From assembly GCA_947472885.1 (NCBI GenBank), contig CANJBX010000005.1, forward strand, positions 1-64,000: 64,000 nt of DNA, in the 5' to 3' direction. The DNA comes from Hyphomicrobiaceae bacterium. Lineage in GTDB: Bacteria > Pseudomonadota > Alphaproteobacteria > Rhizobiales > Xanthobacteraceae. The notes beneath the pieces are model-generated. The model made no database searches. It was not told where the DNA came from and worked only from the letters and a program-made list of their open reading frames with translations. Each line of letters opens with the position of its first letter. Position 1 is the stretch's first letter. Positions 7,751 through 46,141 of the stretch are shown one piece after another. Position numbers and translations under genes: made by a program.

Positions 7751-10700
7751 ATGATTCCGGGTTCCCCCTCAGCCTCGAAGCGCGGCCGTGTTTTCACCAT
7801 TCCGGCGTCGGTGCCGTTCCTGCCGACGCTGGTGAAGGCGTTGCTCGACGGCACGCTGGTCGCAGGATTTGCGCCGCGCGGCCAACCGCTGGAACTGGCG
7901 CGCGCCACCATCTACCTGCCGACCAAGCGTTCCTGCGTGCTGGCGCGTCAGGCTTTCCTCGACGAACTTGGCACCGATGCCGCTGTGCTGCCGCGCATCG
8001 TCCCCATCGGCAGCATCGACGAGGACGAATTCGCTTTCGCGGAGACTGCTAACGCAGACGCACTGGATTTAAAGCCATCCATCGGCGGCTTTGAGCGCCG
8101 CGCGCTGCTGACGCAGTTCATCCTGAAGTGGGCGGCGTCGCCCGGCGTGCGCAGCGCGGAAGGCACGCCACTGGTCGCCACATCTCCAAGTGCGGCGCTC
8201 GCCCTGGCCGACGACCTCGCGCGGTTGATGGACGACATGACCACCCGCGAAGTGCCGTGGTCGAAGCTCGATACGCTCGTGCCGGAGAGCATGGACAAAT
8301 ACTGGCAACTCACGCTCGATTTTCTCAAGATCGCGCGCGAACACTGGCCGGCCCTGCTCAGGGAGCGGCAAGCCATCGAACCGGCCGAACACCGCGACCG
8401 TTTGATCGCCGCTGAAGCTGAACGCCTGAAGACACGCCCGGACGGTCCGGTGATTGCCGCTGGCTCGACCGGCTCGATGCCGGCGACGGCGAAGCTGATC
8501 GCAACGATTGCAAAATTGCCGCATGGCGCGGTGGTGCTGCCGGGCCTCGACACCGACCTCGACGAACCCTCGTGGAGGCTGATCTCCGGCGAGAACGACA
8601 ACACGCCCGCCGCGGGCCACGCCCAGTTCGCGCTGCATGGCCTGCTGGCGCGCATGGAAATCGAACGCGGCGCGGTCGATACACTGGGTACTCCATCAGA
8701 GGAAGGCCGCGAGACGCTGGTGTCGGAGGCGCTGCGCCCCGCGCAGAGTACGCACATCTGGCCACAGCGGCTGGACGACAGGGACATCGCCGCGCGCATC
8801 GCGGCGGGACTTTCCAACCTGACCCTGATCGAGGCCGCCAACGCGGAAGAAGAAGCGCTGGCCATTGCGATTGCGCTGCGCGAGGCAGTGAATACGCCCG
8901 GCAAGACCGCCGCGCTGATTACGCCCGACCGTGCGCTGGCGCGCCGCGTCACCGCCGCGCTGCAACGCTGGCACATCGACGCCAACGACACTGGCGGCGA
9001 CCCGCTGGGCAACACGCCCGCCGGGGTGTTCGCGCGGCTCGCCGCCGAAGTCGCGCTCGATGGGCTGCCGCCGGTCTCACTGCTGGCGCTGCTCAAGCAT
9101 CCACTGTTCAGGCTGGGCGACGGCAACAGCGTCGCCGCACTGGAACGCGCCGTGCTGCGCGGGCCACGTCCGCGTGGCGGTAGCGCGGCACTGGCGAGCG
9201 CCGTGAAGAATACGCGCGCCGAGTGGGACAAGCTCCAGCGCAAGGAGCGCTCGTCGATCCATCGGTTCGACCCGCAGGCGGCGCTGACGGCGGCTGACTT
9301 CGACCATGCGGCGGCGCTGGTCGATAAAATTTCCGCCGCGCTCAAGCCGCTGGAAGAAATCGCCCGCAGCAAACCGCTGCCGTTCGGCGAGATGGCGAAG
9401 CGTCATCGCGAGGTCATCGCGCATCTCAGCACTGAGGGCGACAACGCAGCCGCATTCCTGCGCGAGGACGGCAAGAAGCTCACGGAGACGTTCGAGGAAA
9501 GCGAAAGCCAGACCGCGGATTCGGATATCGCGCTGTCGCCCATCGACTACGCCGAATTTTTCCTGACCGCGATTGCAGGCACCGTCGTGCGCTGGCAGGA
9601 GAACCCTGCGGCACGCGTGCGTATCTATGGTTTGCTCGAAGCGCGACTGACCGACACCGACCGCGTCGTACTCGGCGGACTGGCGGAAGGCGTGTGGCCG
9701 CCGGAAGTACGCGGCGATCCGTGGCTCAGCCGTCCGATGCGCCATCAGCTCGGACTGAACCTGCCGGAGCTGCGCATCGGCCTTACCGCACATGACTTCG
9801 CGCAGCTCCTTGGCGCGCGCGAAGTGTTTCTCACCCGCGCCACCAAGCTCGGCGGCGCGCCGACGGTGGCTTCCAGATTTCTGCAACGGCTCGGCGCGGT
9901 CGCCGGCGAACGCTGGACCGAGGTCGCGGCGCGCGGCGAGAACTATCTCGCGTGGGCGCGCAATCTCGATCATCAGGCACAAGAAGCAAAGCCGGTTGCG
10001 CGTCCCCAACCCAGGCCACCGCGCGCGGCGCGGCCGCACCGGCTGTCCGTCACCGATATCGAGAACTGGCGGCGCGATCCCTATTCGATCTACGCCGGCC
10101 ATATTCTCCGCCTGCGGCCGCTGGAGGACATCGACACGCCGCCCGGCGCACGCGACCGCGGCACGCTTATTCATGGCGCCATCGGCGAATTCACCGATAT
10201 CTACAAGGACAGGCTGCCGCCCGATGCGGAGCGTGTGCTGATCGGCATCGGCGAGCGGCATTTCGAGCCGCTGAAGGACTTTCCCGAGGCGCGCGCGTTC
10301 TGGTGGCCGCGCTTCCTGCGCATCGCCAGGTGGTTCGCGCAATTCGAGACCGCGCGCCGCCCCGACATTGAAACGCTTTACACCGAGCTTTCGGGCACCC
10401 GCGAGTTTCCGCTTGGCGATGCCACCTTCACGTTACGCACGCGCGCCGACCGTATCGAGCGCCGCAAGGACGGCTCCTACGTCATTCTCGACTACAAGAC
10501 CGGAACGCCGCCGACGACGCCGCAGGTGCAGACCGGCCTCTCGCCGCAGCTCACGCTTGAAGCCGCGATCCTGCGCGGCGGCGGCTTCGAGAACATCGAC
10601 CCCCATTCGCCGGTGACGCAACTCGCCTATATCCATCTGCATGGCGGGCCGGATGGCGGCGCCGACAAGCCCGTCACATTCAAGAGCAGCACGGCAGACA

Positions 10701-32257: not shown

Positions 32258-32612
32258 GAAACTTCCGGTAATGGTGAAAGAGCCCGGGCACGCGCTGCGG
32301 CTCAATGGGCGGCGGCACCATAGGGAGCGGCCCATTGGCCGTCAATAGCCGCCAGTGGCCGATTTCCGGCGAATTGCCGCGCGCGGCCGGCGGCTGAAAA
32401 ACAGGCGTAATCAGGCTTAATATGACAGCCTATCTGGCTCCAGGTCACGACTTGAGCCACGACCTGGAAGCAATGGAACTTCCGCTATTGATTGTATACC
32501 AACGCACGCATTGACCGCGGCGGTTAACGCCGCCTTGATAGCCTTCGCATTCGCCGGGCAATGACGCCGACATCTAACTCCGTGGCAGCGAAGCCAAGAT
32601 CGTCCAACACCG
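32258..32612. promoter_or_regulatory. Divergent ptsN-nasT intergenic region with an inverted repeat
   Basis: A 355-base gap without a supportable gene. An inverted repeat CCAGGTC (32440-32446) / GACCTGG (32461-32467) with a 14-base spacer could be an operator or a weak hairpin. I see no clear sigma-54 box ahead of nasT. Confidence 0.4.
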
Positions 32613-33197
32613 ATGGACCCCACGCTTAAAATCGTCATCGTCGATGAAAACCCGATCCGGGCGGCCATTCTCGAGGACGGCCTGCAGGAAGCCGGCTTTA
32701 CGCAGGTGGTGCGTATTGCGGAAATGACCAACCTGCTGTCGCGCATCTACGCGCTCGATCCCGAAGTCATCCTTATCGACCTGGAAAATCCGAGCCGCGA
32801 CGTGCTGGAGCAGATGTTCCAGGTCAGCCGCGTGGTGAAGCGGCCGATTGCGATGTTCGTCGATAGCAGCGATTCCGCTTCCATTCAGGCTTCCGTCGAT
32901 GCGGGCGTTTCCGCCTATATCGTCGATGGCCTGAAAAAAGAGCGCATGAAACACATCCTCGATCTGTGCATCTCGCGCTTCAATGCGTTCTCGCGCATCC
33001 AGGGTGAACTCGAAAAAACCAAGACGCAGCTTGAAGAGCGCAAGGTGATCGACCGCGCCAAGGGCATCCTGATGAAGGCCAAGAACTTGACCGAGGAACA
33101 GGCCTACGCCCTCATGCGCAAGACAGCCATGAACGAGAACAAGAAGATCGCCGAGATCGCACAGTCTATTGTGATGGCTTCGGACCTGCTGAAGTGA
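32613..33197 (+). CDS. nasT: NasT-like ANTAR response regulator (transcription antiterminator)
   Basis: A 194-residue protein with a receiver-like domain (residues 1-120, IVIVDENPIRAAIL and VILIDLENPSRD with Asp in the acceptor place), a coiled-coil linker, and a C-terminal ANTAR RNA-binding domain (VIDRAKGILMKAKNLTEEQAYALMRKTAM). NasT binds paired hairpins in nas leader RNAs and prevents termination; NasS holds it back when nitrate is absent. Its stop overlaps the nasS GTG by four bases. A matching hairpin and terminator lie upstream of nrtA. Confidence 0.93.
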   Translation: MDPTLKIVIVDENPIRAAILEDGLQEAGFTQVVRIAEMTNLLSRIYALDPEVILIDLENPSRDVLEQMFQVSRVVKRPIAMFVDSSDSASIQASVDAGVSAYIVDGLKKERMKHILDLCISRFNAFSRIQGELEKTKTQLEERKVIDRAKGILMKAKNLTEEQAYALMRKTAMNENKKIAEIAQSIVMASDLLK

Positions 33198-34360
33198 GCA
33201 CGGAAATGAACGAGCGTTTGCGCATAGGCTTCATTCCGCTGTGCGACGCAGCGGCGCTGATGATCGCAGTCGACAAAGGCTTCTGCGCGCAGGAGAAGCT
33301 CGACGTCGAATTGATCCGCGAAGTGTCGTGGTCGAACGTGCGCGACAAGCTCAACATCGGCATTTTCGACGCTGCCCATCTCATCGCGCCGATTGCCATC
33401 GCGTCGAGCCTCGGCCTCGGGCACGTCAAGGTGCCGATCATTGCGCCCGTCGCGCTTGGCATCAACGGCAATGCCATCACGGTTTCGCCCGCGCTTTATC
33501 GCGCGCTGGCGGCAGAAGCGGGTGACGGCATCATCGATCCGCTCAAGACCGCGCAGGCGCTGGCGCGGCTGGTGGCGGAGCGCAAGCGCAAGGGCGAAGC
33601 GCCGTTCACCTTCGGCATGACGTTTCCCTACTCGACGCACAATTATCATTTGCGCTTCTGGATGGCCGCGGGCGGCATCGACCCAGACGAAGACGTGCGG
33701 CTGGTGGTGTTGCCGCCGCCCTACATGGTGGATTCGCTCGCCAGCAAGCAGGTCGATGGCTTCTGCGTCGGCGCGCCCTGGAATTCGGTCGCGGTCGATC
33801 AGAACGTCGGCCACATCCTGCATTTCATGTCCGACATTCTGGCCAGCGCCAGCGAGAAGGTATTGGCGCTGCGCCAGACCTGGGCAAATGAAAATCCCGA
33901 TGTCGTGACGCGGCTCATTCGCGCGCATCACCGCGCCGCGCAATTCGCGGACGACCTCGCCAACCGCGACGAAGTCTGCAACATCCTCGCGGCCCCGAAC
34001 CGCATCGGCATCGCCGCCGAAGTGATCCGCCGCACCCTGGACGGCAAGCTGAAAGTCGCACCCGACGGCACGACGCGCGAGAGTACGCGCTATCTGCAAA
34101 TCGGCAGGAATGGCGCTGCCCGCCCGAACCCGGTCCATGCCGCGTGGCTCTACGCCCAGATGGTGCGCTGGCGGCAGGCGCCGCTGTCGGCGGCGTTGCT
34201 CGCGCAGGCCAGGGCCGTGTTCCGGCCGGACCTATATGATGCCGTCACCGGCACGTCCGCCCAGCCCGCCACAGGCGAACCGGCCGACAGCGTCGGGGCT
34301 TTCGCAGGACCCGCCTTCGATGAAGGCGATCTCGCCAAGTACCTCGCCGCCTGGCGGTAA
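33194..34360 (+). CDS. nasS: NasS-like nitrate sensor (NrtA/CmpA family, cytoplasmic)
   Basis: A 388-residue protein homologous to NrtA substrate-binding proteins (RIGFIPLCDAAALMIAVDKGFCAQEKLDVELIREVSW; TFPYSTHNYHLRFWMAAGGIDPDED) but without a signal peptide, as expected for cytoplasmic NasS. NasS binds NasT and releases it on binding nitrate or nitrite. The GTG start at 33194 overlaps the nasT stop. The nasT-nasS order differs from the nasS-nasT order of some species. It is followed by the regulated leader of nrtA. Confidence 0.92.
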   Translation: MSTEMNERLRIGFIPLCDAAALMIAVDKGFCAQEKLDVELIREVSWSNVRDKLNIGIFDAAHLIAPIAIASSLGLGHVKVPIIAPVALGINGNAITVSPALYRALAAEAGDGIIDPLKTAQALARLVAERKRKGEAPFTFGMTFPYSTHNYHLRFWMAAGGIDPDEDVRLVVLPPPYMVDSLASKQVDGFCVGAPWNSVAVDQNVGHILHFMSDILASASEKVLALRQTWANENPDVVTRLIRAHHRAAQFADDLANRDEVCNILAAPNRIGIAAEVIRRTLDGKLKVAPDGTTRESTRYLQIGRNGAARPNPVHAAWLYAQMVRWRQAPLSAALLAQARAVFRPDLYDAVTGTSAQPATGEPADSVGAFAGPAFDEGDLAKYLAAWR

Positions 34361-34712: not shown

Positions 34713-36032
34713 ATGACGACCGAGACCAAGACCCCAGCAGCCGGCACCTTCAGCCGCCGCAAATTCCTCAAGGCAGGAGCAAGCACTGCCGCTCTGCTAA
34801 GCGCAGCCAGGTTCAATTTCCCCGGCGGCGCGTTTGCGCAGACCGCAGGCCCGGAGGTCAAGAAGGCAACGCTCGGCTTCATCGCCTTGAGCGATGCCGC
34901 TCGCCTGTTCATCGCAAAGGAAAAGGGCCTGTTCACCAAGTACGGCATGCCGGACGTTGAAGTCGCCAAGCAGGCATCGTGGGGCGCGACGCGCGACAAC
35001 CTCGTACTCGGCGGCGAAGGCAACGGCATCGACGGCGCGCACATCTTGTCGCCGATGCCCTACCTCATCAGCGCCGGCAAGGTGACGCAGAACAATGCGC
35101 CGACGCCGATGTATATCCTCGCGCGCCTTAACCTCGATGCACAGTGCATCTCGGTCGCCAAGGAATACGAAGACCTCAAGATCGGTGTCGATACCGCGCC
35201 GCTGAAGATCGCCTTCGACAAGAAGAAGGCGACGGGCAAGCCGGTCAAGGTCGCGATGACCTTCCCCGGCGGCACCCACGACCTGTGGATTCGCTACTGG
35301 CTCGCTGCCGGCGGCATCGATCCCGACAAGGACGTCGAGACCATCACCGTTCCGCCGCCGCAAATGGTGGCGAACATGAAGGTCGGCACCATGGACGCGT
35401 TCTGCGTCGGCGAACCTTGGCCGGGCCAGCTCGTCCATCAAGGCATCGGCTACACCGCCATCAACACCGGCGAACTGTGGGCCAAGCACCCGGAAAAATC
35501 GCTCGGCATGCGCGCCGACTGGGTCGACAAGAATCCGAAGGCTGCTCAGGCCATCCTGATGGCCGTGATGGATGCCCAGATGTGGGCCGACAAGATGGAA
35601 AACCGCGAAGAAGTTGCGGCGATCTGCGCCAAGCGCCAGTGGATCAACTGCCCGGTGGAAGACGTCACCGACCGCATGAAGGGCAGGTTCGACTACGGCA
35701 TTCCCGGCAAGGTCGTCGAGAACTCGCCGCACATCATGAAGTATTGGCGAAATCACGCGTCCTATCCGTTCCAGAGCCATGACCTGTGGTTCATGACCGA
35801 GGACATTCGCTGGGGCAAATATGACGCCGGCTTCGACAGCAAGGCGCTCATCAAGAAGGTCAATCGCGAAGACCTTTGGCGCGAGTCGGCCAAGACCCTT
35901 GGCGTTGCCGCAGCCGACATTCCGGCTTCGACCTCGCGCGGCAAGGAAACGTTCTTCGACGGCAAGGTATTCGACCCGGAAAATCCGGCCGCCTACCTCA
36001 AGAGCCTCACCATCAAGCGCGTCGAGGTTTGA
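34713..36032 (+). CDS. nrtA: Nitrate ABC transporter substrate-binding protein (NrtA/CmpA family)
   Basis: A 439-residue periplasmic protein with a twin-arginine signal (FSRRKFLKAGASTAALLSAA, cleavage near AFAQ). The mature part (ATLGFIALSDAARLFIAKEKGLF; VAMTFPGGTHDLWIRYWLAAGGIDPDKD; FCVGEPWPGQLVHQG) is the NrtA nitrate/nitrite-binding fold, also shared with bicarbonate-binding CmpA. Nitrate is preferred because of the nas context. It is the first gene after the attenuator leader and is separated from nrtB by a 213-base region with palindromic repeats. Confidence 0.93.
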   Translation: MTTETKTPAAGTFSRRKFLKAGASTAALLSAARFNFPGGAFAQTAGPEVKKATLGFIALSDAARLFIAKEKGLFTKYGMPDVEVAKQASWGATRDNLVLGGEGNGIDGAHILSPMPYLISAGKVTQNNAPTPMYILARLNLDAQCISVAKEYEDLKIGVDTAPLKIAFDKKKATGKPVKVAMTFPGGTHDLWIRYWLAAGGIDPDKDVETITVPPPQMVANMKVGTMDAFCVGEPWPGQLVHQGIGYTAINTGELWAKHPEKSLGMRADWVDKNPKAAQAILMAVMDAQMWADKMENREEVAAICAKRQWINCPVEDVTDRMKGRFDYGIPGKVVENSPHIMKYWRNHASYPFQSHDLWFMTEDIRWGKYDAGFDSKALIKKVNREDLWRESAKTLGVAAADIPASTSRGKETFFDGKVFDPENPAAYLKSLTIKRVEV

Positions 36033-36245: not shown

Positions 36246-37145
36246 ATGACCATGACCGTGCTGAAAACCGAACCGGCCTCCGTCCTGCCGCCCGCAGCGG
36301 CGGCGAAGGTGCTGCCGTTGCCCAAGCCGGAGCGCGCGTTTTTCAAGACGAGCGTGCTGCCGAAACTCAAGGGCTTCGCCACCAGCGTGGTGCCGCCCGC
36401 CGTCGTCATCTGCCTCCTGCTCGCGGTCTGGGAAATACTCTGTCGCAAGGCAGGCGCGACCTTGCCGCCGCCCTCGCGCGTCAATGCCGATACCAGGGAA
36501 CTCATCTTCGATCCGTTCTTCGACCGCGGCGGCCTCGACAAGGGCCTGTTCTGGCATCTCTCCGCGAGCTTGCAGCGCGTGGCGCTCGGCTATGCCATCG
36601 CCGCCGTTTGCGGCGTCGCGCTTGGCACACTGGTCGGCCAGTCGATGTGGGCGATGCGCGGCCTCGATCCGATCTTCCAGGTGCTGCGCACCGTGCCGCC
36701 GCTGGCGTGGCTGCCGCTCGCGCTTGCCGCTTTCCGTCAGGGCCATCCGTCGGCGATCTTCGTGATCTTCATCACCTCGATCTGGCCGATCATCATCAAT
36801 ACCGCGGTCGGCATCCGCAATATTCCGCAGGACTACCGCAATGTCTCCGCCGTGCTGCGGCTCAATCCGATCGAGTTCTTCTACAAGATCATGGTGCCGT
36901 CGGCCGCGCCCTACATCTTCACCGGCCTGCGTATCGGCATCGGCCTGTCATGGCTCGCCATCGTCGCCGCTGAAATGCTGATCGGCGGCGTCGGCATCGG
37001 CTTCTTCATCTGGGACGCCTGGAACTCCTCGCATATCAGCGAAATCATCCTGGCGCTGATCTACGTCGGCATCATCGGCTTCCTGCTCGACCGCATCGTG
37101 GCCACGCTCGCCAACATCGTCACCCGCGGCACCGCGTACAACTGA
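36246..37145 (+). CDS. nrtB: Nitrate ABC transporter permease
   Basis: A 299-residue inner-membrane permease with about six helices and the EAA-like loop IRNIPQDYRNVSAVLRLNPIEFFYKIMVPSAAPYI. The C-terminal half is the BPD_transp_1 fold (GIGLSWLAIVAAEMLIGGVGIGFFIWDAWN). It forms the channel with NrtC. The start ATGACCATG at 36246 is accepted; Met3 is equally possible. It is followed 11 bases later by the ATPase gene. Confidence 0.93.
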   Translation: MTMTVLKTEPASVLPPAAAAKVLPLPKPERAFFKTSVLPKLKGFATSVVPPAVVICLLLAVWEILCRKAGATLPPPSRVNADTRELIFDPFFDRGGLDKGLFWHLSASLQRVALGYAIAAVCGVALGTLVGQSMWAMRGLDPIFQVLRTVPPLAWLPLALAAFRQGHPSAIFVIFITSIWPIIINTAVGIRNIPQDYRNVSAVLRLNPIEFFYKIMVPSAAPYIFTGLRIGIGLSWLAIVAAEMLIGGVGIGFFIWDAWNSSHISEIILALIYVGIIGFLLDRIVATLANIVTRGTAYN

Positions 37146-37156
37146 GGGAACACATC

Positions 37157-37951
37157 ATGGCCTATCTTCAGATTGACCACGTCGACAAGACCTTTAGGCG
37201 CGGCGCGGTCGAAACCAGCGTACTCAAGGACATTACCCTGATCATCGAGAAGGGGGAATATGTCTCGATCATCGGCCACTCCGGCTGCGGCAAGTCCACG
37301 CTTCTCAACATCGTGGCCGGCCTGACGCCGGCGACCGTCGGCGGCGTCATTCTGCAGAACCGCGAAGTCAATTCGCCGGGGCCGGATCGCGCCGTCGTGT
37401 TCCAGAACCACTCCCTGCTGCCGTGGCTCACGGTCTACGACAACGTGCGGATCGGCGTCGATAAGGTGTTCGGCCGGACCAAGACCCGCACTGAGCGCAA
37501 CGCCTGGACGATGCACAATCTCGAACTCGTGCAGATGACCCACGCCAGGGACAAGCGCCCCGGCGAAATCTCCGGCGGCATGAAGCAGCGCGTCGGCATC
37601 GCTCGCGCGCTCGCCATGGAGCCCAAGGTGCTCCTCCTCGACGAACCTTTCGGCGCGCTCGATGCGCTGACCCGCGCGCACCTGCAGGACTCGGTGATGG
37701 CGCTGCACCAGAAACTCAACAACACCGTGATGATGATTACCCACGACGTCGATGAGGCCGTGCTGCTGTCGGACCGCATCGTCATGATGACCAACGGCCC
37801 GTCGGCGCAGATCGGCGAAATTCTCGACGTGACACTGCCGCGGCCGCGCAAGCGGCTCGAGGTGGCAACCTCTCCCGCCTACCTCAAGGCGCGCCAGCGC
37901 GTGCTGGAGTTCCTCTACGAACGCCACGCCTACATCGAATCGGCGGCGTAA
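37157..37951 (+). CDS. nrtC: Nitrate ABC transporter ATP-binding protein (NrtC/NrtD type)
   Basis: A 264-residue ABC ATPase. Walker A IIGHSGCGKSTLL, Q-loop VVFQNHSLLPWLTV, signature ISGGMKQRVGIARAL, Walker B LLLDEPFGALDALT and the switch His in MITHDVDEAVLL are all intact. It lacks the NrtA-like C-terminal domain of cyanobacterial NrtC, so it is closer to NrtD in size. It powers NrtAB. nirA starts 35 bases later. Confidence 0.93.
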   Translation: MAYLQIDHVDKTFRRGAVETSVLKDITLIIEKGEYVSIIGHSGCGKSTLLNIVAGLTPATVGGVILQNREVNSPGPDRAVVFQNHSLLPWLTVYDNVRIGVDKVFGRTKTRTERNAWTMHNLELVQMTHARDKRPGEISGGMKQRVGIARALAMEPKVLLLDEPFGALDALTRAHLQDSVMALHQKLNNTVMMITHDVDEAVLLSDRIVMMTNGPSAQIGEILDVTLPRPRKRLEVATSPAYLKARQRVLEFLYERHAYIESAA

Positions 37952-37986: not shown

Positions 37987-39759
37987 ATGTCGAACGATTT
38001 TACTGCGGAGCAGAAACGGTATCTCGAAGGCTTCATGTTAGGCCTTCAGGTCGCGCGTGTCGGCCGCAAGCCGGGCGCAGCAGCCATCAGCGGCGGAAAT
38101 GCAGAGCCGACCGGACCTGAAGCCGCACACCTCAAGGCGCAGCAGGCGACGGTCGCGCGCGGCGGCAAGCTCGTCGATCAGGAGAAGTGGAAGCGCGGTC
38201 TGCCGCATCCGTTCGATGCTTACGGCACGTTGAAAGATCAGGCGGACAAGAACGAACCGCCGAAGCCGATGGATAATTTCCGCTGGCGCTATCACGGCCT
38301 GTTCTATGTAGCGCCGGCACAGGAGTCCTACATGTGCCGGATGCGGATGCCGAACGGCATGCTCAAGCACTGGCAGATGGCGGGTCTTGCCGATGTCGCG
38401 GAGGATTTCGCCGGCGGCTTCTCCCATGTGACGACGCGCGCCAACCTGCAGATCCGTGAAATCCTGCCCAGGAACGCAATCAACGTCCTTGAAGGCATCA
38501 CGGACCTGGGCCTGACAGCCCGCGGCGCAGGCGCCGACAACATCCGCAACGTCACCGGCAGCTCCACCGCCGGCATCGACCCGCTGGAATTGCTCGACAC
38601 GCGGCCTTATGCCCGCGAATGGCACTATCACATTCTCAATGACCGCTCGCTTTACGGGCTGCCGCGCAAATTCAACGTGGCGTTCGACGGCGCGGGAGCG
38701 CTGGCGACGCTGGAAGACACCAACGACATCGGCTTCCAGGCAGTCGATGTGCGCGAAGGCTTCGATGCCGAACCCGGCATCTGGTTTCGCCTGACACTTG
38801 GCGGCATCACCGGCCACAAGGACTTCGCGCGTGACACCGGCGTGATCGTGAAACTCAACGAGGCGACGAAAGTCGCCGACGCCGTCGTGCGCGTGTTCAT
38901 CGACCACGGCAACCGCACCGACCGCAACAAGGCGCGGCTGAAGTATGTCCTCGACGACATGGGATTCGAAAAATTCCTGTCGCTGATGGAGGAGAAGCTC
39001 GGCGCGCCGCTCACCCGCATCCCGGCGGAAGCCATCAACCCGCGCCCGCAGTTCGACCGCCTCGCGCATATTGGCGTGCACCGGCAGAAGCAGGAAGGCC
39101 TCAACTGGGTCGGTGTCGTGCTGCAGACCGGCAAGCTCACCGTCGAGCAGATGCGTGGCATTGCGAAGATCTCAGCTGATCTCGGCGACGGCGATATCCG
39201 CCTCACGGTCTGGCAGAATCTGCTGATCTCCGGCGTCGCCGACGACAAGGTTGAACTCGCGAAAGCCGCGATCTCCGCCATCGGCCTGACGACCGATGCC
39301 ACTACCATCCGCGCTGGCCTTGTTGCCTGCACCGGCAACGCCGGCTGCAAGTTCGCCGCCTCCAACACCAAGCGCCATGCCGAAGACATCGCACAATGGT
39401 GCGAGCAGCGCGTGCAGATCGACACACCGATCAATATTCACCTCACCGGCTGCCACCATTCCTGTGCGCAACACTACATCAGCGACATCGGCCTCATCGG
39501 CGCGCGCGTCGCGGTGTCCGACGAAGGCGACACGGTCGAGGGCTACCACATCTTCGTTGGTGGCGGCTTTGGACCGCAGGCCGGCGTCGGTCAGGAAATC
39601 TTCCATGACGTAAAAGCGCCCGATGTGCCACAGACCGTCGAAAGCCTGCTGCGCGCCTATCTTACCCATCGCGAAGCCGATGAGACATTCCTCGCTTTCA
39701 GCCGCCGCACCACGGTCGATGCATTGAAGGCCATGTGCGCCGGGGAGATCGCGGCATGA
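37987..39759 (+). CDS. nirA: NirA-type siroheme nitrite reductase
   Basis: A 590-residue siroheme/[4Fe-4S] reductase with two NIR_SIR ferredoxin-like and catalytic halves. The cluster ligands are C-x5-C in ACTGNAGC and C-x3-C in GCHHSC. The N-terminal 70 residues are a family-specific extension (AEQKRYLEGFMLGLQVARVG). It reduces nitrite to ammonium with six electrons. Ferredoxin is the donor in classical NirA; here the next gene is a flavin reductase that may feed it. The start of that gene overlaps this stop. Confidence 0.9.
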   Translation: MSNDFTAEQKRYLEGFMLGLQVARVGRKPGAAAISGGNAEPTGPEAAHLKAQQATVARGGKLVDQEKWKRGLPHPFDAYGTLKDQADKNEPPKPMDNFRWRYHGLFYVAPAQESYMCRMRMPNGMLKHWQMAGLADVAEDFAGGFSHVTTRANLQIREILPRNAINVLEGITDLGLTARGAGADNIRNVTGSSTAGIDPLELLDTRPYAREWHYHILNDRSLYGLPRKFNVAFDGAGALATLEDTNDIGFQAVDVREGFDAEPGIWFRLTLGGITGHKDFARDTGVIVKLNEATKVADAVVRVFIDHGNRTDRNKARLKYVLDDMGFEKFLSLMEEKLGAPLTRIPAEAINPRPQFDRLAHIGVHRQKQEGLNWVGVVLQTGKLTVEQMRGIAKISADLGDGDIRLTVWQNLLISGVADDKVELAKAAISAIGLTTDATTIRAGLVACTGNAGCKFAASNTKRHAEDIAQWCEQRVQIDTPINIHLTGCHHSCAQHYISDIGLIGARVAVSDEGDTVEGYHIFVGGGFGPQAGVGQEIFHDVKAPDVPQTVESLLRAYLTHREADETFLAFSRRTTVDALKAMCAGEIAA

Positions 39760-41438
39760 ACCAGTCCGTGTTTCCCCCCGCCATCTCCCTGATCCCGGAC
39801 ACTGCGCCATTCACCGCCGAACAGCGCACCTGGCTCAACGGCTTCCTCGCGGGTCTCGTCTCACTCGATGGCGCAGGCGTGACCGCGCTGTCGCCGGATC
39901 AATCTGCCGCGCTGCTGCCGAACGCACCGTCCGCGCCGAAAGGTCCGCTGGACGATGGCGATGACGGCGAAGCGCCGTGGCACGACCAGACCATGCCGCT
40001 CGACGAGCGCATGAAACTAGCCGCCGGCAGGCCATTGCGCCGGCGAATGATGGCAGCAATGGCGCAACAGGACTGCGGACAATGCGGATACAACTGTTCC
40101 GACTATTCCGACAAGCTGGTCCTTGGCGAGGAGACGCGGCTGAATCTCTGCGTTCCCGGCGGCAAGGAAACGCTGCGAATGTTGAAGACGCTGCAGCCCG
40201 AGATCGGCAGCTCGCCGGCACCATCTCGGCCTTCGCCAGCGGAAGCAAAAGCGCCGACAACGATGCCGGGTGCCGGTGCTACGGCTGCACCAATGTCCGG
40301 CTCGGTCTCGCCAAGCGCACCAACACCCGGCACTTCGCGCGAAGCTCCGGCTGACGCGATCTTCCGCGCCCGCACCAGGCTGACCGGAGAAGGTTCCGAA
40401 AAAGACACCTACCATATCGAAATCGACCTCGCCGGCAGCGGCATCGACTATGCCGTCGGCGATGCTTTCGGACTTTATCCGCGCAACGATCCGGGTCTGG
40501 TTTCAGCCGTCATTTCCGAACTCGGTGCACAACCCGACTTCGAGATCAACGGCCGCACCCTGCGTCAGGTGCTGACCGACAACGTCTCGCTGTCGCTCGC
40601 GCCCGATGTGCTGTTCCAGTTGTTCTCCTACATCACCGGCGGCGACCGCCGGCAGAAGGCCAAGCTGCTGGCCGACGGCGGCGACCCGGACGGCGACGCC
40701 GCGACGCTCGACGTGCTGGCGGCGCTGCAGAAGTTCAGGGGCGTGCGCGTCGATCCCGAAGCCTTCGTGGAAGCGCTCGATCCGCTCCAGCCGCGCCTCT
40801 ATTCGATCTCGTCGTCGCTCAAGACCTCGCCGAACGCCGTGACGCTCACGGTCGATACCGTCCGCTATGAAATCGAAAGGCGGCAGCGCCTCGGTGTCGC
40901 CTCGACCTTCCTCGCCGACCGCATCACCACCGGCGACAAGATCAGGGCCTATGTCCAGAAGGCCGGCCACTTCAACCTGCCGGAAGATCCGGCGACGCCG
41001 ATCATCATGATCGGACCCGGCACCGGCGTCGCGCCGTTCCGCGCCTTCCTGCATGACCGCATGGCGTCGGGCGCAACCGGCAAGAACTGGCTGTTCTACG
41101 GCCACCGCCGCCGCGACACCGATTTCTTCTACGAGGACGAGTTCCTCGACATGAAGGCGAAGAACGTGCTGACACGCCTGTCGCTCGCATGGTCGCGCGA
41201 CACTGCCGAGAAATTCTATGTGCAGGATCGCATGCGGCAGGTCGGCCGCGACGTCTGGGCCTGGCTCTCCGAAGGCGCGCACATCTATGTCTGCGGCGAC
41301 GCCAAGCGGATGGCCAAGGACGTTGAGCGTACGCTGGTCGATATTGTTGCGCAGCATGGCGTGCGCACGCTCGAGGAAGCCGTCGCTTTCGTCGGCGCGC
41401 TCAAGAAGCAGCATCGCTATCACCAGGACGTTTACTGA
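39756..41438 (+). CDS. FAD/NAD(P)H reductase with RnfB-like Fe-S domain (CysJ-like C-terminus)
   Basis: A 560-residue protein. The N-terminus repeats the NirA-like extension (FTAEQRTWLNGFLAGL). Residues about 110-150 hold four Cys in QDCGQCGYNCSDY and LCVPGG, like the Fe-S domain of RnfB (PF04060 type). A Pro/Ala/Ser linker follows, then a CysJ-like FAD domain (RLYSISSS) and a NAD(P)H domain (MIGPGTGVAPFRAFL, YVCGDAKRMAKDV). There is no FMN flavodoxin domain. Usually named sulfite reductase alpha, but context points to electron supply for NirA or NasA. The start at 39756 overlaps the nirA stop. Confidence 0.85.
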   Translation: MNQSVFPPAISLIPDTAPFTAEQRTWLNGFLAGLVSLDGAGVTALSPDQSAALLPNAPSAPKGPLDDGDDGEAPWHDQTMPLDERMKLAAGRPLRRRMMAAMAQQDCGQCGYNCSDYSDKLVLGEETRLNLCVPGGKETLRMLKTLQPEIGSSPAPSRPSPAEAKAPTTMPGAGATAAPMSGSVSPSAPTPGTSREAPADAIFRARTRLTGEGSEKDTYHIEIDLAGSGIDYAVGDAFGLYPRNDPGLVSAVISELGAQPDFEINGRTLRQVLTDNVSLSLAPDVLFQLFSYITGGDRRQKAKLLADGGDPDGDAATLDVLAALQKFRGVRVDPEAFVEALDPLQPRLYSISSSLKTSPNAVTLTVDTVRYEIERRQRLGVASTFLADRITTGDKIRAYVQKAGHFNLPEDPATPIIMIGPGTGVAPFRAFLHDRMASGATGKNWLFYGHRRRDTDFFYEDEFLDMKAKNVLTRLSLAWSRDTAEKFYVQDRMRQVGRDVWAWLSEGAHIYVCGDAKRMAKDVERTLVDIVAQHGVRTLEEAVAFVGALKKQHRYHQDVY

Positions 41439-41444
41439 GCCGCC

Positions 41445-44274
41445 ATGAACGCACCGCTGCACACACCTGCGCCGGTTCGCACCACCTGCCCCTATTGCAG
41501 GGTGGGCTGCGGGCTCAAGGTGCAGCCGGGCGCGGTCGGCAAGACGACGGTCGCCGGCGACGAGGACCATCCGGCGAATTTCTCACGGCTGTGTTCAAAG
41601 GGCGCAGCGCTCGGCGAAACCCTCGGCCTCGATGATCGCCTGCTGTATCCGCTGATGGTCGGCGCGGACGGTGCGCGTGCGCGCACCACCTGGCCCAGGG
41701 CGCTCGATGCGGTCGCCGACGGCTTCAAGCGCATCATCGGCGAGCATGGCCCCAACGCTGTCGCGTTCTATCTCTCCGGGCAATTGCTGACCGAGGATTA
41801 CTACGTCCCCAACAAGCTGATGAAGGGCTTTATCGGCTCGGCCAATGTCGATACCAACTCGCGCCTCTGCATGGCGTCGTCGGTCGTCGGCCACAACCGC
41901 GCGTTCGGTTCGGACACGGTCCCCGGCGCGTATGAAGACCTCGACTCCGCGGACCTCATCATCCTGGTCGGCTCCAACACCGCATGGTGCCATCCGGTTC
42001 TCTATCAGCGCATAGTGAAAAACCGCAACGAACGCGGCGCCAAGATCGTCGTCATCGACCCGCGCCGCACCGCGACCTGCGAAGACGCCGACCTGTTTCT
42101 CCCCGTCGCGCCCGGCACCGACACCATTTTATTTTCAGCGCTGCTGGCACACCTCGCCGACACGCTCGCCATCGACTTCAGATATATCGACAGCCACACG
42201 ACCGGGTTCGAGAACGCGCTGGCGCGCGCGAGAGAGATCGCGCCGAACATCATCTCCGCCGCCAAGGCATGCGGCATCGTCGCCGAAGACCTCGCGCGCT
42301 TCTGCAACCTGTTCCGCAGGACCGCCAAGGTCGTCACCTGCTACTCGCAGGGCGTCAACCAGTCGGCGCAGGGCACCGACAAGGTCAACGCCATCATCAA
42401 CTGCCACCTTGCGACCGGCCGCATCGGCAAGCCGGGCATGGGGCCGTTCTCGCTGACCGGCCAGCCGAACGCCATGGGCGGCCGTGAGGTCGGCGGTCTT
42501 GCCAATCAGCTCGCTGCCCACATGAAGTTCAACGACGCCGACATCGACCGCGTACAGCGGTTCTGGCACGCGCCGAACATGGCGAAGCGCGAAGGGCTGA
42601 AGGCTGAAGGCTGTCGATATGTTCGACGCCATTGCACGCGGCGAGATCAAGGCGCTGTGGGTAATGGGAACCAATCCGGCGATGTCGCTTCCCCGCGCAA
42701 GCGCCGTGCGCGAAGCGATGAAGAAACTAGAGTTGTTCGTCGTGTCGGAAAACGTGTTGTCGAACGACACCGTCAATTCCGGCGCGCATATTCTCCTTCC
42801 TGCCGCCGCCTGGGGCGAGAAGAACGGCACCGTCACCAATTCGGAGCGCTGCATCTCGCGCCAGCGTTCGTTCCTGCCGCTGCCGGGCGAGGCCAAACCC
42901 GATTGGTGGGCGGTGGCGCAGGTCGCGCAGCGCATGGGTTTCACAGATGCGTTCGCCTACACCTCGGCGGCGCAGGTTTTCCGCGAACACGCCGCGTTGT
43001 CGGGTTTCGAGAACAACGGCACGCGCGATTTCGACATCGGCGGGCTTGCTGAAATCACCGACCGCGAATTCGATGTACTGGCGCCGGTGCAATGGCCGGT
43101 TCTTGCTGATCCCTCCCCTGAAAGGGGAGGGTCCGCGCAGAGCGCGGGGGTGGGGTCTTCTTTCGCAACGACGACCCCCACCCGCTTGCCTGCGCTCGCT
43201 GCGCGAGCTGCGGCAATCGACCTCCCCCTTGCAGGGGGAGGTATGAGCAAAGCCAAACGCTTCTTTGCCGACGGCAAGTTCTACACGCCCGATGGCAAGG
43301 CGCGCTTCATCGCACCGGAAATTCCGCAGCTCGGCGAAAAGCAATCCGAAGCATTCCCGCTGCGGCTCAACACCGGCCGCGTCCGTGACCAGTGGCATTC
43401 GATGACGCGCACCGGCAAGAGCGTGCGGCTTGCGTCGCATGTCGCCGAGCCTTTTGTCGAAGTGCATCCCGGGGATGCGCAGGCCGCCGGCATCAGTGAC
43501 GGCAGCTTTGCAAGGCTCACAACGGCCTATGGCGCGTGCGTACTCAAGGTCATCGTCACCGACGGCCAGCGCCAGGGTTCGCTGTTTGCGCCGATCCACT
43601 GGAGCGATGCGACCGCCTCCTCGGCGCGCATCGGCGCACTGGTGACGCCGCGGACCGACCCGCATTCCGGCCAGCCGGAAATGAAGGCGACGCCAGCCGC
43701 GATCTCGCCGGTTGAATTGCCGGTGCGCGGATTCCTGCGCTCACGGCGCAACATCGCACTGCCGGAAGATACATGGTGGGTCCGCATTGCCACCGCACAT
43801 GGACCGGAACTGCGCATTGCCAGCAAGCGCGATGTCCTGTTCTGGCATGAGTTCGCGCAGCACACGCTTGGGCAGGACGCGCAGCTGGTCGAAACCATCG
43901 ACTCCGCGCAGGGTATCTATCGCGCAGCCGCTTTCATCGACGGTGAATTCGATGGTTGCCTGTCGGTCGGCCCCGGCGACGTTGCGCTGCGCTGGGAAGG
44001 ACTGTCATCGCTGATCGCCGCCGGCGTACCCGCAGATGGATCGGCAGTCACAGTGTCGTTGAGTACCGCAATCGAGGACACCAACGACGGCCCGATGGTC
44101 TGCGCCTGTGTCGGCGTCGGACTTGAAACCATCCGCACCTGCCTGCGCTCAGGCCATGCCGCGAGCGTCGCCGATGTCGGCAAGGCAACCGGCGCCGGCA
44201 GCAACTGCGGCTCGTGCCTGCCCGAACTCAAGCGCATCGTGGCGCGGGAAAAACACGCTTCGGCAACCGCGTGA
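41445..44274 (+). pseudogene. nasA: Assimilatory nitrate reductase NasA, frameshifted by a 7-bp tandem duplication
   Basis: The first part (frame of 41445) is a molybdopterin nitrate reductase with N-terminal cluster ligands CPYCRVGCG and a later Cys in RLCSKG, good to about residue 385 (MAKREGLKA). The frame then fails. The rest continues in the frame of the 42619-44274 ORF (MFDAIARGEIKALWVMGTNPAMSLP) to a C-terminal BFD-like [2Fe-2S] domain (CACVG, CGSCLPEL). At 42597-42612 the seven bases CTGAAGG occur twice; with one copy the protein reads AKREGLKAVDMFDA and would be 940 residues. A palindromic repeat near 43110-43242 is also inserted in frame. A sequencing error cannot be excluded. Confidence 0.85.
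43110..43242. repeat. Palindromic repeat inserted in frame in nasA
   Basis: Three hairpins follow each other: CCCTCCCC TGAAA GGGGAGGG, GGGTGGGGTC...GACCCCCACC, and CCTCCCCC TTGCA GGGGGAGG. The element encodes a Pro/Ser/Ala-rich stretch (DPSPERGGSAQSAG... AAAIDLPLAGGG) between VQWPVL and KRFFADGKFYTPDG, which normally are close together. It keeps the reading frame open. Confidence 0.8.
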
Positions 44275-44674: not shown

Positions 44675-46141
44675 ATGACCGACACCCGCAAACCCGCCGA
44701 GACACGCCCCGCCCGCATGGATGCGCTGGCGCGGCTGCCGGTGTTCTATGCGCTGGCGGGCAAGCGTGCGCTGGTCGTCGGCGGGCGCGGACCTGCGGCG
44801 TGGAAGGTCGAACTGCTTTCCGCCACCGGCGCTGCGGTCGATGTAATCGCTCACAATATTTCCGACGAGATGCGCGACGTGATTGCCGGCGCGCCGAACG
44901 GACCTGTCACCTTGCATGAACGCGCGTGGCGCGCGGAGGACATTTCCGGTGCCGCCATCGCCATCGGCGATTTCCCCGATGAGGAAGAAGCCGCGAAATT
45001 CGCCGCCGCCGCACGCGCCGCCGGCGTGCCGGTCAACGTCATCGACAAGCCGAAGTTCTGCGACTTCGCCTTCGGCGCCATCGTCAACCGCTCGCCGCTG
45101 GTCATCGGCATTTCGACCGACGGCGCGGCGCCCGTGTTCGGCCAGGCCATTCGCGCCAAGTTAGAGGCAATCCTGCCGCAAGGCTTCGCGCTGTGGGCTG
45201 CCGCTGCGCGGCGCTGGCGCGACCATGTGAAATCTTCCGGCCTGTCGTTCGAAGCGCGCCGCCGCTTCTGGCACCTGTTCACCGCACGCGCGATCCGCGA
45301 ACCCAACCACGCGCCTGCCGATGCCGATTTCGACACGCTGCTCACTGAGACGCGCAACCAGGCGCAGGCGGCGGAGGCCGGCTCCGTCACACTGGTTGGC
45401 GCAGGCCCCGGCGATCCCGAATTGCTCACGCTGAAAGCCGTGCGCGCGCTGCAATCCGCCGATGTCATTCTCTATGACGATCTGGTCGCGCGCGAAGTCC
45501 TCGATTTCGCGCGCCGCGAAGCGCGCAAGATGCTGGTCGGCAAGACCGGCTATGGCCCGTCGTGCAAACAGGAAGAAATCAACGCGCTGATGGTGCAGCT
45601 TGCGAAAGCCGGCCGCCGCGTCGTGCGCCTCAAGGGCGGCGACCCGCTGATCTTCGGCCGCGCCACGGAAGAAATCGACGCCTGCCGCAATGCCGGCATT
45701 GCGCTGGAGATCGTGCCCGGCATCACCTCGGCGCAGGGCGCTGCCGCACGGCTCGGCGTTTCGCTCACCGAACGCGCCACCGCGCGCCGCGTGCAATACA
45801 TCACCGGCCATGACCGCAAGGGCGCGCTGCCCGACGACATCGACTGGCAGAGCATCGCCGACCCCTCGACGACAACCGTGGTCTACATGCCGAAGAAGAC
45901 GCTCGGCGAACTCGCTGCCCGCGCCATCGCGCAGGGCCTCGACCCGGCGACGCCCGCGGTTGCGATTGCAGGCGCGACGCGCGCCAATGAAGTCGTAATC
46001 GCCGCACCGATTTCGCAGCTTGCGGAGAAGATCGCGCAGACAAGGCTTGAAGGCCCGGCGCTGGTGCTGATCGGCAAGGCCATGGCGGGGGCGATGGTGA
46101 AAAGCGATCCGCAAGCTGAGACGCAGCAGGCTTCGGCTTAA
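44675..46141 (+). CDS. cysG: Siroheme synthase (CysG type)
   Basis: A 488-residue trifunctional enzyme. The N-terminal third is precorrin-2 dehydrogenase/ferrochelatase (ALVVGGRGPAAWKVELLSATGA, dinucleotide site). The C-terminal part is uroporphyrinogen III methyltransferase (VTLVGAGPGDPELLTLKAVRAL; VVRLKGGDPLIFGRATEE; VVPGITSAQGAAA-like; YITGHDRKG). It makes siroheme, needed by NirA, which explains its place at the end of the nas cluster. The start at 44675 is 97 bases after the small membrane ORF. Confidence 0.95.
   Translation: MTDTRKPAETRPARMDALARLPVFYALAGKRALVVGGRGPAAWKVELLSATGAAVDVIAHNISDEMRDVIAGAPNGPVTLHERAWRAEDISGAAIAIGDFPDEEEAAKFAAAARAAGVPVNVIDKPKFCDFAFGAIVNRSPLVIGISTDGAAPVFGQAIRAKLEAILPQGFALWAAAARRWRDHVKSSGLSFEARRRFWHLFTARAIREPNHAPADADFDTLLTETRNQAQAAEAGSVTLVGAGPGDPELLTLKAVRALQSADVILYDDLVAREVLDFARREARKMLVGKTGYGPSCKQEEINALMVQLAKAGRRVVRLKGGDPLIFGRATEEIDACRNAGIALEIVPGITSAQGAAARLGVSLTERATARRVQYITGHDRKGALPDDIDWQSIADPSTTTVVYMPKKTLGELAARAIAQGLDPATPAVAIAGATRANEVVIAAPISQLAEKIAQTRLEGPALVLIGKAMAGAMVKSDPQAETQQASA

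Follow-up and report, generated by a model that had tools for sequence, protein, structure and literature searches.

The nitrate reductase gene nasA of this genome is broken by an exact tandem duplication of seven bases, and a recent spontaneous loss-of-function mutation is the best explanation, to which we assign a probability of about 70%. The gene is located in the window analysed here (G000:C5:1-64000, the whole stretch of 64,000 nucleotides), which is part of a draft genome of 3.88 Mb in 128 contigs with a completeness of 99.4%. The closest relatives among the compared genomes are Pseudolabrys, Rhodopseudomonas, Bradyrhizobium and other Xanthobacteraceae. As stated in the original prediction, the unit CTGAAGG is present twice in direct repeat and is followed by CT (42597-42603 and 42604-42610, forward strand). 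The entire period-7 run covers 19 bases or 2.7 units (GGCTGAAGGCTGAAGGCTG, 42595-42613). Lag-7 runs of at least 12 matches are expected by chance at ~0.03 per 64 kb, and none was found in a further 400 kb of the genome. The 16-base core pattern of the duplication has a single occurrence in the 3.88 Mb.

In nasA as assembled there is no single translatable frame for NasA. The correct frame extends over 386 codons from 41445 to 42602 on the forward strand and encodes the Fe4S4 domain and the larger part of the molybdopterin domain; the frame opened at 41445 then goes on out of register to its stop at 43052 (tail at 42611-43052, same strand). The 3′ part is encoded one frame over on the same strand at 42611-44274, listed as ORF 42619-44274, and holds the remainder of the molybdopterin domain, followed by the dinucleotide-binding and BFD-like [2Fe-2S] domains. 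The expectation of a good NasA frame before the repeat and a shifted one after it was thereby borne out. A codon-usage HMM, which makes no use of homology, placed the frame change at 42602/42604, and the Pfam molybdopterin profile is divided between the two frames at its positions 261/251, with positions 1-261 in the 5′ frame. All domains of NasA (Fe4S4, molybdopterin, dinucleotide-binding and C-terminal BFD-like [2Fe-2S]) were found across the two frames and, if the frame change is ignored, the protein is colinear with its relatives over the full length. Removing one 7-base unit rejoins the two parts, as had been proposed: the junction reads AKREGLKAVDMFDA, and the one-unit gene is open over 940 codons without a stop.

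The comparison with related loci indicates that the break is particular to this genome. All loci of a first set of 99, in which NasA was aligned across the duplication site, cross this site in one frame, as variants of GLKAVxMF. The 99 relatives, which are at most 74% identical, the value for the N-terminal part of NasA, all have the one-unit length there. In 92 of them a single frame stays open for 900 residues or more; the remaining seven end at a locus or contig edge. When the set was enlarged to 199 loci, which represent 184 distinct proteins (some genomes are included under two ids), no frame shift was detected in NasA. Close relatives with the same two-copy sequence and a frame kept intact by another route had been named beforehand as evidence that would speak against the prediction; among the more distant relatives compared here, the repeat pair itself is missing in 99 of the 99 loci. 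A different defect was seen in a MAG labelled Rhodopseudomonas (L028, identical to L174; 6001-6075), where an in-frame TAG at codon 17 of NasA falls between the first two Fe-S cysteines of an otherwise open gene. For the gene studied here, a programmed frameshift or a split gene was rejected, as no stop is located at the site, the abandoned frame continues for 447 bases and no relative is split. The 3′ ORF was likewise rejected as a gene of its own: its ATG at 42619, which follows AAGG, could serve as a start, but the product would have no Fe-S domain and little of the molybdopterin domain.

The sequence around the site suggests how the duplication may have arisen. In the one-unit form (GGCTGAAGGCTG) the five bases GGCTG occur twice as a direct repeat, 7 bases apart. 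Such a pair at this distance is enough for a slipped-strand duplication and is a normal substrate of replication slippage. An exact tandem copy together with a direct repeat that spans the unit in the one-unit form, two marks of the slippage type, are both present, and they support the original view of a single, precise 7-bp slippage event. The ancestral nasA would have carried GGCTG twice at this spacing; during replication the new strand would have slipped back by one repeat, so that 7 bases were copied twice and the frame shifted after about codon 386. Translation would then yield about 386 correct residues followed by about 149 wrong ones, in a product that lacks the last part of the molybdopterin domain and all of the dinucleotide-binding and C-terminal [2Fe-2S] domains. 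With these losses, the two-unit allele is not expected to yield an active nitrate reductase. Loss of one unit by the same route may occur as a rare reversion. Elsewhere in the genome (L155, G000:C4:20001-40000), an 8-base tandem repeat with about four copies of CGTGACCC was observed at about 9098-9128, where a coding segment whose start resembles DnaA/Hda ends or has just ended; this non-triplet repeat could be variable in length.

The surroundings of nasA are those of a nitrate assimilation operon, with a nitrate transporter, a nitrite reductase and a siroheme synthase all nearby on the forward strand. Upstream are genes for an NMT1-like substrate-binding protein of a nitrate-type ABC transporter (34713-36032), a nitrate ABC transporter permease (36246-37145, TIGR01183) and ATP-binding protein (37157-37951, TIGR01184), a NirA-family nitrite reductase (37987-39759, NF007126) and a CysJ-like flavoprotein reductase (39735-41438, NF004859), the probable electron donor of the pathway; the siroheme synthase gene cysG follows downstream (44675-46141, NF007922). 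All of these genes are open, and permease, ATPase, NirA, reductase and CysG score above the curated cut-offs of the families given. Upstream of the transporter, at 32610-34351 of the window, a response-regulator-like gene is followed by a gene for a substrate-binding-protein-like product. The family matches are only general, and the arrangement is consistent with a NasT/NasS regulatory pair. A search of the genome for a second nitrate reductase revealed no other NasA and no NarG or NapA above cut-off; the matches in C66 and C32 share 29-34% identity and were rejected as distant molybdopterin oxidoreductases. With none of these enzymes recognised beside the broken NasA, the cells should be unable to reduce nitrate but keep the genes for uptake and nitrite reduction. 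If the break is real, the genome has to be recorded as being without a working nitrate reductase despite its complete-looking nas operon, which is a trap for pathway annotation built on gene lists.

The gene had further been described as otherwise intact. This holds in so far as there is no other stop or frame shift, but a palindromic repeat element of ~138 bases is read through in frame in the 3′ half (43108-43245, forward strand, approximate boundaries), so that nasA is not plainly intact. The element forms GC-rich hairpins (fold z-score -6.9) and was scored as non-coding by the codon-usage HMM. Related repeats are present elsewhere in the genome (C65, C1) and in 22 of 41 genomes of the family. 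In the protein, the element extends the linker between QWP and RFFADG to 53 residues vs a median of 10 in the relatives. All insertions of at least 18 residues among the 184 distinct NasA proteins are located in this same linker, and each of them is palindromic at the DNA level. They were found in this genome, in L019, in L091 and in a Mesorhizobium group (L079 and L090), and L101 has a shortened form. The inserts belong to three sequence types: that of this genome, the related ones of L019 and L091, and that of Mesorhizobium. According to the NasA tree, they go back to at least four independent events, at least three of which took place in other lineages. Insertions of 15-17 residues were also observed in another loop of the Competibacter-type NasA of L057 and L067, near their own residue 522; these are of the PLPGG/PLEEGRGEG style and are possibly remnants of palindromic repeats. 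A simple explanation is a linker that tolerates insertions, combined with selection removing insertions elsewhere, and a target preference of the palindromic elements for the NasA linker is conceivable. The linker is a clear case of dispersed repeats turning into protein sequence in free-living bacteria, and this finding may matter more than the duplication, which is ordinary as a mutation.

An assembly error had been named among the possible causes, and it remains the alternative to be taken most seriously. The two-unit sequence would then be a consensus artefact or the minority allele of a mixed sample in which most cells have one unit, and it would have entered the contig because an overlap was wrongly merged or a rare variant was chosen. 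A variant that arose in culture is a related possibility. The draft state of the genome with its 128 contigs leaves room for such an event, and a real break in the only recognised nitrate reductase, which is open in all relatives, would be costly where nitrate matters. We nevertheless regard this explanation as unlikely. A scan of 464 kb (the 64-kb window and the further 400 kb, with 447 coding segments) contained 84 neighbouring frame changes on the same strand, and only in nasA does the abandoned frame continue far (447 bases). Three weaker candidates with 48-78 bases turned out on reading to be ordinary gene ends and starts. In the absence of a second read-through frame break in the 464 kb, the assembly does not appear to be generally frame-damaged. 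The longest repeated word around the duplication has 12 bases, so that k-mer graphs with k of at least 13 are free of loops at the site and a repeat error of such a graph is unlikely. Exact 7-base tandem copies are also an unusual error of the common sequencing methods, which counts against an artefact. These points make an artefact less likely, and the cells probably carry the two-unit allele.

A reversible switch and an older pseudogene are both far less probable. As a phase switch, the 7-base unit would be gained and lost often, turning nitrate assimilation on and off in the population, so that some cells would forgo nitrate reduction and still retain uptake and the nitrite step. A non-triplet tandem unit in an otherwise open gene can revert in principle, and short tandem duplications give rise to capsule phase variation in pneumococci according to Waite et al., as cited in PMC4022640. 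However, there are just two units in nasA, and a review assigned tracts with two to four short units to a low-rate, proto-mutable class (PMC4235727); in pneumococci, insertions no longer than 9 bp were expected to revert with a frequency of at most ~1e-5 (PMC4022640). Contingency loci have tracts which are long enough for frequent slippage and are kept in related strains or species, and neither applies to a run of 2.7 units that is shared by 0 of the 99 relatives. There, the longest lag-7 match at the site is 3, so the site is not a kept hot spot. Moreover, the one-unit nasA contains 34 comparable pairs whose duplication would break the frame (at least 5 bases, distances of 4-14), eight of them at distance 7. 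With the pair lacking in relatives and comparable pairs being common, the site shows no mark of selection for switching, and the suggestion of an on/off switch found no support. It is just as improbable that nasA had already been inactivated, for example by the palindromic insertion or by changes at conserved residues, and that the duplication followed as a neutral event. The in-frame element in the 3′ half and changes at four of 201 near-invariant NasA residues (G19R, G47S, A122P and G232A, all in the 5′ half) are in line with this, and the 5′-half changes including G19R, which adjoins the Fe-S cysteines, would also fit an enzyme impaired before the duplication. Yet four changes are not clearly above the 2.3 expected for the branch length, as similar branches show one to five; in the neighbouring genes, near-invariant changes number zero in NirA, zero in NrtC and two in the reductase. 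Similar palindromes are found in the same linker of relatives with open genes. The 940 codons are without any other stop or frame shift, and the absence of other stops caps neutral substitutions at about 4.5% per site (95%). A long decay of nasA is thus unsupported, and without clear signs of a long period of relaxed selection, the duplication is probably recent.

A spontaneous loss-of-function mutation in nasA has a well-known counterpart in slippage duplications between direct repeats that lead to spontaneous frameshifts; the nasA case is the same, and only the gene is particular. Our literature search on nasA frameshifts and on microhomology duplications in bacteria yielded nothing directly on point. 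The capsule genes cap3A, cap8E and tts of S. pneumoniae, as described by Waite et al. (cited in PMC4022640), share with nasA a short duplication within an open reading frame that switches the gene off and can be reverted when one copy is lost. In contrast to nasA, for which there is one sequence with a 7-base unit and no sign of recurrence, phenotype and reversion were measured in the cited pneumococcal work. The linker element has a counterpart in Rickettsia, whose protein genes can contain palindromic elements in frame (PMC10969869, a review). Common to both is a dispersed palindromic repeat of ~140 bases which is translated within an ordinary enzyme. The nasA element differs in its sequence and in its occurrence in the order Hyphomicrobiales, and here several unrelated repeat types have entered the linker of one protein.
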